A stretch of 58,675 nucleotides of DNA, from assembly GCA_001563875.1 (NCBI GenBank), contig LKMN01000003.1, forward strand, positions 1 through 58,675, read 5' to 3'. The DNA is from Nanohaloarchaea archaeon B1-Br10_U2g1 (GTDB lineage: Archaea > Nanohalarchaeota > Nanosalinia > Nanosalinales > Nanosalinaceae). The notes beneath the pieces are model-generated. The model ran no database searches. It saw nothing but the letters and a program-made list of their open reading frames with translations, and was not told the origin of the DNA. A program made the translations under genes and the position numbers. This document shows, one piece after another, positions 4,518-21,118 of the stretch; the first letter of the stretch is position 1; each line of letters begins with the position of its first letter.

Positions 4518-5528
4518 ATGCAGGAAAAACAGTTTATACAGGAAGGCGCAAGGAAAGTACGTCTACACGAGAGACTTCAAGAAGAGCTTGAAGGCGCAGG
4601 ATACTCAAACGCTGACATAGTAAGAACCCCTACATCCACAAAGATAGTTATATACGCACAGAGACCAGGACTTGTGATCGGTAGAGGAGGTTCCCGAATT
4701 AAAGAACTAACAAATACTATAGAAAACGTCTTTGACTTTGAGAATCCTCAGATCGAGGTAAACGAAATAGATAACCCTGACGCAAACGCACAGATAGTAG
4801 CACAGTCAATGGCCTCTTGGTTAGAGAAAGGAGGAAGAGCAAAAAGGGTAGGATACACATACCTTAGAAGAGTTAAAGAATCTGGAATTATCGGAGCAGA
4901 AATCGAAGTAACAGGTAAGATCAGCGGAAACCGTGGAAGAACAGAGAAGTTCTCATTCGGATACGTCAAAAGATGTGGGAACACATCAAAAGAGAACGTA
5001 GATAAAGGATACGCATTAGCAAGAACCAAGCCAGGAGCAATTGGAGTAAAGGTCCGGTTGATGAAAGAGATGCCTGATTTCATGCACAGAGACGTAGACG
5101 TGGAGAAAGAGCTGATGCATGAAACAATAAGTTCTGATGAGACACATGAGAAATCAGAGAAGATAGAAATGATTATCGCTGAAGCTGAAAACATGACAGC
5201 AGGAGAGATAGAAAGAGCTATAGAAGAGCTTGAGGGAATCGGTGAAGGAGATGTGTCAACTTCAGAGGTAAGAAAAGTATTCGAGAAAGGTGACCATGAT
5301 ACAGAAGAGAGTGAAGAAACTTCGGAAGAAGTTGAAGAAGAGGAAGTTGAAGAAGAAACAGAAGATACAGAAGCCGATTACGAAGAAATTGTTTCAGGAA
5401 CTATCAGCGATGCAAAAGATGCATTAAATGAACTGGAGAATCCTGACTATGCAGCAGCACTTGAAGCTGAAAAATCAAACAAAGACAGAAAAACTCTAAC
5501 CCAATGGTTAGAGAATAAGAAAGAATAA
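4518..5528 (+). CDS. rps3: 30S ribosomal protein uS3 with acidic linker and extra C-terminal module
   Basis: uS3 forms the mRNA entry channel. Residues 1-200 hold the KH domain (GLVIGRGGSRI, residues 51-61) and the S3 C-terminal domain ending near GVKVRLMKEMPDFMHRD. Beyond this, residues about 200-286 are charged and very acidic (SEETSEEVEEEEVEEE). Residues 287-336 form a compact basic/acidic helical-looking module containing ENPDYAAALEAEK and KDRKTLTQWLENKKE. The same module ends uL24, three ribosomal genes downstream (32 of 50 residues identical). At 336 residues it is much longer than typical uS3 (about 210-230 in bacteria and most archaea). The core call is certain; the tail's function is unknown. 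Confidence 0.96.
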   Translation: MQEKQFIQEGARKVRLHERLQEELEGAGYSNADIVRTPTSTKIVIYAQRPGLVIGRGGSRIKELTNTIENVFDFENPQIEVNEIDNPDANAQIVAQSMASWLEKGGRAKRVGYTYLRRVKESGIIGAEIEVTGKISGNRGRTEKFSFGYVKRCGNTSKENVDKGYALARTKPGAIGVKVRLMKEMPDFMHRDVDVEKELMHETISSDETHEKSEKIEMIIAEAENMTAGEIERAIEELEGIGEGDVSTSEVRKVFEKGDHDTEESEETSEEVEEEEVEEETEDTEADYEEIVSGTISDAKDALNELENPDYAAALEAEKSNKDRKTLTQWLENKKE

Positions 5529-5553
5529 AAACAGAACACTAGGTGTCATAGAT

Positions 5554-5757
5554 ATGGCGATTTTAAGAACAGACGAAGTAAGAAACATGAGCGAAGATGA
5601 ACTCAAAGAAAAAATAAGAGACCTCAAAACAGAGATAATGGAAGAACGAGGTCAGATTGAGACAGGAGGATTCGCTGACAACCCGGGAAGAATCAAAGAG
5701 ATGAAGAGAACAATCGCCCGTATAAAAACAATTCTTAACGAAAGAGGTTCTGAATAG
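5554..5757 (+). CDS. rpl29: 50S ribosomal protein uL29
   Basis: 67-residue two-helix uL29, which sits next to uL23 at the tunnel exit and contributes to the SRP docking site. Family features are MAILRTDEVRNMSEDELKEK at the start and the basic RIKEMKRTIARIKTILNER second helix. It follows uS3 after 25 bases with AGGTG (5542-5546) upstream, and the aIF1 gene begins 6 bases after its stop. Confidence 0.94.
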   Translation: MAILRTDEVRNMSEDELKEKIRDLKTEIMEERGQIETGGFADNPGRIKEMKRTIARIKTILNERGSE

Positions 5758-5763
5758 ATACTA

Positions 5764-6075
5764 ATGGCTGAAACTACTTGTCAAAAATGCGGAATGCCTG
5801 AAGACCTGTGCGTATGTGATGACATCGCACGGGACGAACAGAAGATAACAGTTAAAATCGATACAAGAACTTTCAACAAGGAAATGACCGTTATAGAAGG
5901 TCTTTCCGAGGACGTTGATATAGACACACTTTCTTCCACACTCAAGTCTAAACTTGCATGCGGCGGAACAGCTAAGAATGGCCAGATACAGCTCCAAGGA
6001 AACCATATCCGAAGGATCAAAGAAGTTCTGTCCGATGAAGGTTTCGACAGAAACCAGATAGAAGTAAAGAACTAA
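5764..6075 (+). CDS. Translation initiation factor aIF1 (SUI1 family)
   Basis: 103-residue aIF1, which binds the small subunit near the P site and monitors start-codon selection. The SUI1 fold is recognisable from KITVKIDTRTFNKEMTVIEGL, then KLACGGTAKNGQIQLQGNH, the conserved GG-rich turn. The N-terminus has CQKCGMPEDLCVCD, a CxxC/CxC metal-knuckle-like pattern common in archaeal aIF1. In many archaea the RNase P protein Rpp29 gene follows at this place; here an acetyltransferase gene does instead. Confidence 0.94.
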   Translation: MAETTCQKCGMPEDLCVCDDIARDEQKITVKIDTRTFNKEMTVIEGLSEDVDIDTLSSTLKSKLACGGTAKNGQIQLQGNHIRRIKEVLSDEGFDRNQIEVKN

Positions 6076-6114
6076 AGGAGAAAAATTAAACATCTCCCTT
6101 AGCTATCCTTTATT

Positions 6115-6648
6115 ATGCCAGGAGCATTATTTCTTGAAGACGACAAAGTCAATCTTAGAACTATTGAGGAGGAAGACTTAGAGTTTCTAAGAGATAATAT
6201 AAACAGTCCTAGAATTCGTACATTTCTAACTGTAAGAAAGCCTCAAAATATGAGCCAACAAAAAAGTTTTTACGAAGAGGTTATCAGCGGTGAAGAAGAT
6301 GTGCACCTGGCAGTATGTGATGACGAAGATATAGTAGGAATCATCTCTCTGGAAGAAGACAGGAAAGATGTCGGTGTAGCGAAAATAGGTATCTGGATAG
6401 GGAAAGATTACCAAGGAAACGGTTATGGTACAGAGGCAGCAGAACTCATAACAGATTACGGTTTCAGCACCTTAGACTATCACAGAGTTATGGCCCAGGC
6501 TTATGAATCCAATAAGGCGTCACAGAGAATATGGGAGAAGCTTGGATTCACCAAGGAAGGAGAGCTACGCGAACAGATCTACAGAAACGGTAACCGGGAG
6601 AACGCATATGTTTATGGAGTTCTAAAAAGAGAGTGGCTGGAAGAGTAA
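6115..6648 (+). CDS. GNAT-family N-acetyltransferase (RimJ/RimL type)
   Basis: 177-residue GNAT domain of the RimJ/RimL class, enzymes that transfer acetyl from acetyl-CoA to an amino group, often the N-terminus of ribosomal proteins. Family features are VNLRTIEEEDLEFLRD at the start, IGIWIGKDYQGNGYGTEAAE (residues 92-111; Q/GxGxG/A acetyl-CoA loop) and YHRVMAQAYESNKASQRIWEKLGF. It interrupts the ribosomal operon between aIF1 and uS17. An AAATTAAAC stretch about 27 bases before the ATG may be its own TATA box, giving a leaderless message. The substrate is unknown; modification of a ribosomal protein is an inference from position. Confidence 0.88.
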   Translation: MPGALFLEDDKVNLRTIEEEDLEFLRDNINSPRIRTFLTVRKPQNMSQQKSFYEEVISGEEDVHLAVCDDEDIVGIISLEEDRKDVGVAKIGIWIGKDYQGNGYGTEAAELITDYGFSTLDYHRVMAQAYESNKASQRIWEKLGFTKEGELREQIYRNGNRENAYVYGVLKREWLEE

Positions 6649-6651
6649 CCC

Positions 6652-6678
6652 TATTTATAAAACTTGGTTTCGATTATT
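6652..6678 (+). promoter_or_regulatory. Internal ribosomal promoter before uS17, copy of the uL3 promoter
   Basis: TATA box TTTATAAA (6654-6661) followed by GGTTTCGAT. The block is 23/27 identical to 865-891. It lies directly after the GNAT stop codon and would drive uS17 and the genes downstream, restarting the cluster after the inserted gene. The predicted start of transcription is near 6682. Confidence 0.7.
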
Positions 6679-6867
6679 GTCTTGTCCGCTTGAAGTCGGA
6701 CTTTGAGCCTGACAGCCTTTTGTCTTGGTTGTAGGTTAGAAGGGTTCGATACTTCAGGCATTGGAGAAAAACCTCGTATTAAGTCTGAGTTGTTTTTCCA
6801 TGTGCCTGTTGTCAAGTGGTTTAAAAGATTTACATACGATTTGAAGACTACGAAGAAGGTGTTGACC
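6679..6867 (+). promoter_or_regulatory. Long untranslated leader before uS17
   Basis: About 185 bases between the promoter and the uS17 start with no convincing gene. Small hairpins are visible: GTCCG (6684-6688) with CGGAC (6697-6701), and GAAG (6739-6742) with CTTC (6752-6755) around GGTTCGATA. The base composition is more T/G-rich than the surrounding A-rich coding strand, consistent with non-coding sequence. It could be a regulatory leader or contain a small RNA. I could not match it to tRNA, RNase P RNA or SRP RNA. Confidence 0.4.
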
Positions 6868-7170
6868 TTGGCAAAACAAGAACAAGAAGAGGAAAAAATT
6901 GAACAGTCGACAAGCATAGAGTTCCCGACTAGAGGCAGTACTTTCGTCGGAACCGTCGAATCAACAAAGATGGAGAAATCAGCAACGGTAAGATGGGAGT
7001 ACAGTCAGAAAGTACCGAAATACGAGAGATTCGAAAGAAGAAACACAAAAATAACCACTCACGTCCCTGAAGATCTAGAAGTGGAAGAAGGAGACAGAGT
7101 CAGAGTTGCCGAGACAAGACCTATCTCAAAAACCAAAAGCTCCGTAATAACAGAGGTTCTACAGAAATGA
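6868..7170 (+). CDS. rps17: 30S ribosomal protein uS17
   Basis: 100-residue uS17, a primary 16S rRNA binder of the OB fold. Core motifs are RGSTFVGTVESTKMEKSATVRWE and KITTHVPEDLEVEEGDRVRVAETRPISKTKSS. The frame is open back to 6703, but the upstream part has no resemblance to uS17. The TTG at 6868 is preceded by AAGGTG six bases upstream and gives the family's normal archaeal length, so I take TTG as start. The stop overlaps the uL14 start (ATGA). Confidence 0.92.
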   Translation: MAKQEQEEEKIEQSTSIEFPTRGSTFVGTVESTKMEKSATVRWEYSQKVPKYERFERRNTKITTHVPEDLEVEEGDRVRVAETRPISKTKSSVITEVLQK

Positions 7171-7565
7171 AGCCAATAGGTTCCAGCATTACAAGAACAC
7201 TGGATATCGGTGCAGAGCTAACATGCGCAGACAACTCCGGAGCAAAGAAGCTGAAAATCATCGGAGTAAAAGCACGGCAAGGAAGAAGAAGCCGCAGAAA
7301 CTCTGCAGGAATCGGAGACGTAGTAATGGTAAAAATACTTAGAGGAGATCAAGAAGTCAAAAACCAGGTCTTTGAAGCAGTAATCGTGAGACAAGCAAAG
7401 GAGTTCGAAAGACCGAACGGACTAAGAGTAAACTTCGAGGACAACGCAGCAGTGCTAGTAGAAGAAAACGGTCTTCCAAAAGGATCAGTAACACGAGGAC
7501 CAATTGCAAAAGAAGTAGTAGAAAGATACTCCCCAATCGGGAAAATCGCATCACAGGTGGTATAG
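7167..7565 (+). CDS. rpl14: 50S ribosomal protein uL14
   Basis: 132-residue uL14 at the subunit interface, binding 23S rRNA next to uL3 and eL24-like proteins. The strongly conserved LTCADNSGAKKLKIIGVK, the basic GRRSRRNSAGIGDVV, and NAAVLVEENGLPKGSVTRGPIAKE are all present. Its ATG overlaps the uS17 stop by four bases, which implies translational coupling. No unusual features. Confidence 0.97.
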   Translation: MKPIGSSITRTLDIGAELTCADNSGAKKLKIIGVKARQGRRSRRNSAGIGDVVMVKILRGDQEVKNQVFEAVIVRQAKEFERPNGLRVNFEDNAAVLVEENGLPKGSVTRGPIAKEVVERYSPIGKIASQVV

Positions 7566-7568
7566 AAA

Positions 7569-8285
7569 ATGGTAGACAAGACACAGAACTGGAGCAGCAA
7601 CTGGAAATCAAGCACCAACCCTTCCAAACAAAGAAAATACAGAGAAAATGCTCCACTACACGTTAAGGATAAACTTATTTCAGCAAACATGGATAAAGAA
7701 CTCAGAGAAGAACTTGACACAAGAAATATTACGATTAGGACCGGCGATAGAGCTAAAGTAATGAGAGGAGACCACAAAGGCCGCGAAGGAATAATCAATA
7801 GAATTGATAGAGACAAAGGAGTTGTGTTTATTGAAGGAATCCAAAATGAGAGACAGGACGGCTCTAAAAGCCAGTTACCGATAAGACCTTCCAACATCCA
7901 GCTTACAGCGCTAAATGTAGATGAGCTTACAAGAATCCAAAAATACGATGTTGACGATGTTGAATCAATCAAGGTTGATGAAGAAGAACTCGAAGTACTT
8001 GAAGAAGATGAAGAAAGTGAAATGATGCAGAGAATGCAAGAGCAGTCGGATACAGAACAAGATGACGAAGATGAAGAAGAGGAAGTACAGGAATCTGAAG
8101 AAAAAGAGGAACCAGAGGAACAAGAAGTAGAATACGAAGAAGTAGTATCTCAAAACATCGGAGAAGTCAAAGAAGAACTAAACAACCTTGAAGAACCTGA
8201 TTACGAAGCAGCACTTAAAGCTGAAAAAGCAGGTAAAGACAGGAAAACCCTTGTAGAATATCTAGAGAACAAGAAAGAGGATTAA
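7569..8285 (+). CDS. rpl24: 50S ribosomal protein uL24 with acidic linker and extra C-terminal module
   Basis: uL24 nucleates 23S rRNA folding and lies near the tunnel exit. Residues 1-125 are the archaeal protein: KQRKYRENAPLHVKDKLISA and the KOW motif IRTGDRAKVMRGDHKGREG (residues 56-74). From about 126 to 187 the chain is very acidic (QDDEDEEEEVQESEEKEEPE). Residues 188-238 form a module with EEPDYEAALKAEKAGKDRKT followed by LVEYLENKKE, closely matching the end of uS3. At 238 residues the protein is about twice the usual archaeal length of roughly 120. The core is certain; the tail's role is not known. Confidence 0.95.
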   Translation: MVDKTQNWSSNWKSSTNPSKQRKYRENAPLHVKDKLISANMDKELREELDTRNITIRTGDRAKVMRGDHKGREGIINRIDRDKGVVFIEGIQNERQDGSKSQLPIRPSNIQLTALNVDELTRIQKYDVDDVESIKVDEEELEVLEEDEESEMMQRMQEQSDTEQDDEDEEEEVQESEEKEEPEEQEVEYEEVVSQNIGEVKEELNNLEEPDYEAALKAEKAGKDRKTLVEYLENKKED

Positions 8286-20569: not shown

Positions 20570-21118
20570 ATGGTAAAGAAACTTAAGCAGCAGTACGAGA
20601 CCCCTAGCGAAGGATGGAGTAAAGAAAGAATCCAGAAAGAGGACGAACTAATAGAGTCATACGGCCTCAAAAACAAGAAAGAGGTCTACAAAGCGGAAAG
20701 CGAGCTAAGAAATCTTAGAAGAGAAGCTAGAAGATTGATTGCAGAAGAAGATGAGACACAGAAAAAAGATCTTATTGAAAGAGTTAACGGCCTAGGACTT
20801 GTTAGAAGTGACGCCGAACTAGAGGATATTCTAACACTTAATACTACAGACATACTAAATAGACGTCTTCAGACAGCTGTAGATAGAAGAGGTCACTCAG
20901 AAACAGTTAGAGAAGCAAGACAGCTTGTTACCCACGGACACGTCTACATAAACGGAGAAAAAGTAAACATTCCCGGATACCTTCTAACACAGGAGGAAGA
21001 AGAAGAACTGGAAGTACGAAAGCCAGAGCCTTCAGAGACCGAAGAACAAGAAGAAACTGAAGAAGAGGAAGAAGTAGAAGGGTCTGAAGAAGAAAACGAA
21101 GAAGGTGATGAAGAATGA
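20570..21118 (+). CDS. rps4: 30S ribosomal protein uS4 with acidic tail
   Basis: 182-residue uS4, a primary 16S rRNA binder. The S4 domain is seen at [20 protein letters not shown] and [20 protein letters not shown]. The last 40 residues are almost pure E with few S and G ([19 protein letters not shown]), a halophile-type extension. Unlike uS3 and uL24, this tail does not end in the shared DRKT module. It is coupled to uS11 by an ATGA overlap. Confidence 0.95.

Follow-up and report, generated by a model that had tools for sequence, protein, structure and literature searches.

A small conserved domain, predicted to fold into four helices, at the ends of ribosomal proteins of both subunits in Nanohaloarchaeota

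In Nanohaloarchaea archaeon B1-Br10_U2g1 two unrelated ribosomal proteins, uS3 of the small subunit and uL24 of the large subunit, end in copies of the same small module. Both genes lie in the window, by which we mean the whole stretch of DNA analysed, 58,675 nucleotides of contig LKMN01000003.1 (GCA_001563875.1). The module recurs in nearly every Nanohaloarchaeota genome searched, on ribosomal proteins, on membrane proteins and, in several lineages, on RNA polymerase. We read it, with a probability of about one half, as a cytosolic protein-docking domain held on a flexible leash. To our knowledge ribosomal proteins seldom gain folded domains, and we know of no other case in which one domain is shared by several unrelated ribosomal proteins, from both subunits, and by RNA polymerase and membrane proteins. 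The finding makes the idea of a ribosome-organising adaptor testable in DPANN archaea, a poorly understood, host-dependent group. Cultured members exist in co-culture, and ribosome structures from these could therefore show the tails directly.

The two genes and their parts are as follows, with linker lengths counted from core ends that we set:

4518..5528, forward strand: uS3 gene, 336 residues (NCBIfam uS3_euk_arch, 213 bits; Pfam Ribosomal_S3_C), with a core of about residues 1-200, then an acidic linker, then the C-terminal module
5118..5375, forward strand: uS3 linker, acidic and of low complexity, measured at 86 residues
5376..5525, forward strand: uS3 module copy, residues 287-336 (profile E 8.7e-27), four helices predicted with a local distance difference test score (pLDDT) of 93.8
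7569..8285, forward strand: uL24 gene, 238 residues (NCBIfam rplX_A_E, 106 bits; Pfam Ribosomal_L26, 68 bits), with a KOW core, then an acidic linker, then the C-terminal module
7944..8129, forward strand: uL24 linker, acidic, measured at 62 residues
8130..8279, forward strand: uL24 module copy, residues 188-237 (profile E 1.3e-24)

The two module copies align without gaps and are identical at 32/50 residues, with a BLOSUM62 local score of 170 against a mean of 27 (standard deviation 5) and a maximum of 57 in 5000 shuffles. Their DNA is identical at 106/150 positions, and the same codon is used at only 18/32 identical residues, a different one at 14/32, so neither copy derives from a recent DNA copy of the other. 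Both linkers are very acidic. Searched with the profile, the window yields no further copy; the tail of uS4 (20570-21118) is acidic but lacks the module. A first, sequence-only reading of the window had described the shared 50-residue ends, the long and very acidic linkers that attach them and the module-free acidic tail of uS4, and our measurements agree with it on each point, down to the coordinates and the 32/50 identity.

That reading had also proposed a two-helix hairpin, which is unsupported: AlphaFold2 predicts four helices (H2-7, H10-19, H25-34 and H39-49; predicted template-modelling score (pTM) 0.72), and the model points to an independently folding domain of ~48 residues. No Pfam model reached its cut-off for any of 91 copies, no NCBIfam model did so for the module in the two window copies and their proteins, and a PHROGs scan of the module gave no family above its cut-off. 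As no Pfam or NCBIfam model covers it, the domain is an unrecognised family that should be useful for annotation. AAA_lid_12 (PF21396) matched the uL24 module at 18.6 bits against a cut-off of 27, and 3/91 copies matched it at E <= 0.1 (best E 0.00045). PF22798, seen as one weak match, was dropped; its hits in the window's genome are not the module. Foldseek against the PDB gave no significant match (best E 4.3), in a search of low power for a 50-residue helical query; the module profile likewise gave none against PDB sequences (best E 0.021, to fragments only), and structural matches to phage and haloarchaeal virus proteins were weak (TM <= 0.73, E > 1). In open-licence PMC text we found no prior description of ribosomal tails in DPANN archaea or Nanohaloarchaeota.

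The module is not confined to uS3 and uL24, the two carriers that the sequence-only reading described. The window's genome holds seven copies in six genes, the function names given with the last three being our own reading:

uS3 and uL24, one C-terminal copy each, in the window's operon
eS24 (Pfam Ribosomal_S24e)
a one-helix membrane protein, module at the N-terminus
a winged-helix/coiled-coil protein, module at the C-terminus, whose gene adjoins a secretion-type ATPase gene
a 487-residue acidic protein, two copies at the N-terminus, whose gene adjoins a vWA-like gene

That 3/6 of these carriers are ribosomal has a chance of ~0.005, assuming 58 ribosomal genes among 850, both totals being estimates. 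Our wider catalogue comprises 175 carrier genes from 42 genomes, and 95 of them encode ribosomal proteins of eight families: uS3 (31), eS24 (25), uL24 (17) and eL31 (16), and more rarely uL10 (2), eL32 (2), eS6 (1) and uS4 (1). Pfam confirmed representatives of the ribosomal carriers (L31e, L32e, L10, S6e and an S4 domain), and a single genome can have up to four module-bearing ribosomal proteins. The RNA polymerase subunit Rpo1C (Pfam RNA_pol_Rpb1_5) carries the module in several lineages. Further carriers include several membrane families, a PH-domain/zinc-ribbon membrane protein, a thioredoxin-like protein, an MCP-like signalling protein, a KaiC-like ATPase, a tyrosine recombinase and pyruvate dehydrogenase E2, which retains its own E3-binding domain. 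The module is terminal in 165/175 carrier genes, and one of the two eL32 carriers has it N-terminally.

Some carriers are unusual in themselves. The uL24 of J07AB56 (G005; L025, L291) is exceptionally long, at about 406-429 residues, because a 231-residue linker precedes its module. In other DPANN lineages C2H2-type zinc-finger motifs were seen by eye before the module in eL31 or uS3 (L086, L100, L103, L108, L109). A distinct module, highly conserved and with a basic end (LLNFEEAHQNRKGMKKFLRSNM), closes eL31 in two families (L092, L097, L230, L237, L244); some of these proteins have a second, ordinary copy ahead of it, and the basic-ended form may have the ribosome itself as its binding site.

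Across the phylum, 27/28 Nanohaloarchaeota genomes match the module profile at E <= 1e-5. Relatives were assigned to the phylum via named contigs, including SG9, M3_22, J07AB56 and J07AB43, from a contig scan that used a closer subset of copies, the 91-sequence alignment being too diverse for it; the lone exception, G021, has a uS3 tail that resembles a degenerate module by eye. Close relatives thus carry the tails, whose absence there the sequence-only reading had named as the sign of a local artefact. Among the 27 module-bearing genomes a ribosomal carrier is present in 25, carriers on both subunits in 22 and a membrane carrier in 26. Elsewhere the module is sparse, found in 6/366 other archaeal genomes; a second phylum has it in 11/156 genomes and a third in 2/19, and one outside carrier is an Altiarchaeales genome.

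Six viral contigs encode distinct proteins that end in a short module-like tail, scoring 30-35 bits to the module profile. On IMG/VR contigs L183, L184, L185 and L188 the tail of a small uncharacterised phage protein is 40-47% identical to the module over ~44 residues and keeps the pattern E..K.DRKT, a similar sequence but in a virus context. A tblastn search of the module against phage records gave no match at E <= 1. The viral tail and the module probably share descent, hinting at additional spread of the domain by or among viruses, and these tails, together with the weak structural matches to virus proteins, suggest a wider family without a name.

Within the window's family mean pairwise identity is higher in the module than in its linker: 0.64 versus 0.43 in uS3 (16 genomes), 0.62 versus 0.31 in eS24 and, a small difference, 0.55 versus 0.50 in uL24. 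E32 and R38 are invariant in 91/91 copies, and K14 (86), K36 (84) and T40 (83) nearly so. The leashes, in contrast, differ in length and composition, that of L108 being non-acidic and rich in proline and alanine, as expected if they act as leashes. Copies on the same host protein in different genomes are 0.58 alike, against 0.46 for copies on different host proteins within one genome, which fits fusions that predate the family's radiation and were inherited with their genes. Two similar tails within one operon could have arisen by local gene duplication or as an assembly artefact, but this is excluded by the host-wise similarity, by the codon differences between the uS3 and uL24 copies and by presence across the phylum in independent assemblies that include complete genomes. 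The module is an old mobile domain. The first suggestion of a duplication between ribosomal genes was thus half right, with an old mobile domain taking the place of a local duplication.

On the ribosome, 21/24 readable uS3 genes of the phylum carry the module; by profile it is lacking from uS3 in G021, G024 and G027, and the uS3 of G002 runs off its contig. The uL24 gene has it in 17/27, and in five genomes where uL24 is without it (G009, G015, G022, G024, G026) it is found on eL31. The large-subunit copy is nearly always on uL24 or eL31, both of which lie on the tunnel-exit rim in yeast (PMC11014269). This replacement of one carrier by another indicates that what the large-subunit copy follows is a location, not a particular gene, and speaks for a function at the tunnel exit. 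The earlier view that position does not explain the shared tails consequently fails for the large subunit. As for uS3, bacterial expressomes lead the transcript to an mRNA-entry helicase formed by uS3 and uS4 (PMC8116511). The eL31 gene itself went undetected (E <= 0.01) in roughly half of the genomes of the phylum (G000-G005, G007, G010, G012-G014, G017 and others), a count in which real loss, divergence and incomplete assembly are not told apart.

Because the domain is conserved and predicted to fold, while its leashes vary, and because it occupies free termini in many large assemblies, the reading that suits it best is a docking tag whose partner the carriers share. The leash would display the module from the small subunit (uS3, eS24), from the tunnel exit (uL24 or eL31) and, in some lineages, from Rpo1C. 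A putative partner common to all carriers, whether a single receptor or further copies of the module, would bind it, and binding would gather ribosomes near each other, near RNA polymerase and near membrane proteins tagged on their cytosolic side. The predicted membrane side agrees: in a positive-inside test lysine and arginine were more numerous on the side of the membrane segment that bears the module in 31/39 membrane carriers, as expected for a cytosolic module. The sequence-only proposal of a mobile tether that recruits a common partner to both subunits fits this picture and is strengthened by the multiple ribosomal carriers per genome, by Rpo1C and by the cytosol-facing membrane ends, while its partner stays putative. 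More speculatively, a domain placed at the mRNA entry, the peptide exit, Rpo1C and the cytosolic side of membrane proteins might form a phylum-wide tagging system that organises transcription, translation and membrane in these reduced, host-dependent archaea, a larger proposal to which we give little weight.

Several observations weigh against docking. The topology test includes five ties and three contrary cases among its 39 proteins. The complete genome of SG9 (G003) has ribosomal copies on the small subunit only, with no large-subunit copy found. An AlphaFold2 model of a natural tandem pair, built on a shallow alignment, reached a pTM of 0.45 and showed the two copies like beads on a string, with no sign of packing in cis. 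Finally, the conserved basic residues could equally mark contact with RNA or DNA, and these residues together with a weak SAP score make nucleic-acid binding the main rival, though an improbable one in our judgement. The module would then be a helix-extension-helix (SAP-like) domain holding mRNA, rRNA or DNA near the ribosome, polymerase, recombinase or winged-helix protein that carries it. K14, K36 and R38 are indeed retained although halophile proteins are acidic, the ends of some eL31 copies are basic, and ribosomal proteins, Rpo1C, the tyrosine recombinase and the winged-helix protein all handle nucleic acids. SAP domains are likewise small, all-helical and mobile, but they consist of two helices joined by an extended stretch, whereas four are predicted here, and the single copy among 91 that resembles Pfam SAP (PF02037), in L083, scores 18.2 bits against a cut-off of 23.9 that no copy reaches. 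Net charge, moreover, averages -7.6 in the window's family and is unconserved across lineages, at -13 to +7, and membrane, chemotaxis-like and pyruvate dehydrogenase E2 proteins make up many of the carriers.

The module could instead serve turnover or the quality control of assembly, as a tag that would mark orphan ribosomal proteins and other exposed subunits for recognition by a proteasome, chaperone or ribosome-assembly factor. Termini on flexible leashes typically serve as recognition sites and the carriers are often subunits of large assemblies, yet a compact fold predicted at high confidence is atypical for a degron, the tag is kept on abundant, permanent parts of the ribosome, and the catalogued carriers include no unfoldase or proteasome; we regard this explanation as quite unlikely. 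Less credible again is a passive halophilic adaptation in which an acidic tail aids solubility or tunes ribosomal protein charge at high salt. The linkers here are very acidic, and unusually acidic ribosomal proteins have been described in halophiles, Nanohalobium constans being among the organisms of that study, in whose text a term search showed no mention of tails or extensions (PMC8672879). Such a role is disfavoured because the module is conserved, more so than the acidic linker in uS3, uL24 and eS24, and because copies in other lineages, such as Altiarchaeales, are neutral or basic. The module also has invariant basic residues, and some relatives have plain acidic tails without it.

The closest known counterpart to a docking tag of this kind is the ribosomal stalk of archaea and eukaryotes. 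Its proteins uL10 and P1/P2 (aP1) have the same C-terminal tail, to which shared partners such as translational GTPases and Gcn2 are recruited, and there too the common element follows a flexible acidic linker (PMC11624264). The stalk tail, however, is a short peptide found on the stalk only, whereas the module is predicted to be a folded domain, lacks the hydrophobic ending that binds GTPases, and occurs on both subunits, RNA polymerase and membrane proteins; we saw no sequence relation between the two. The main carriers are uS3, eS24, uL24 and eL31, and the module is on 2/27 uL10 genes, from two sister species of one genus, so we rejected it as a replacement for the uL10 stalk tail. On our preferred reading the module would work like the shared stalk tails, but as a new family at new sites. 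Separately, the uL10 of Nanohaloarchaeota (L314-L340 loci) has a plain acidic end and lacks the hydrophobic, GTPase-binding terminus present in uL10 of other archaea. A second parallel is NusA of Mycoplasma pneumoniae, whose flexible C-terminal extension contacts the ribosome and links it to RNA polymerase (PMC8116511). In NusA the extension belongs to one protein, whereas the module is repeated on both machines and a link between machines is here hypothetical.

Within the ribosomal protein operon of the window, a GNAT-like acetyltransferase gene (6115-6648), identified by reading, lies between a SUI1-like gene and uS17; its product could modify ribosomal proteins.

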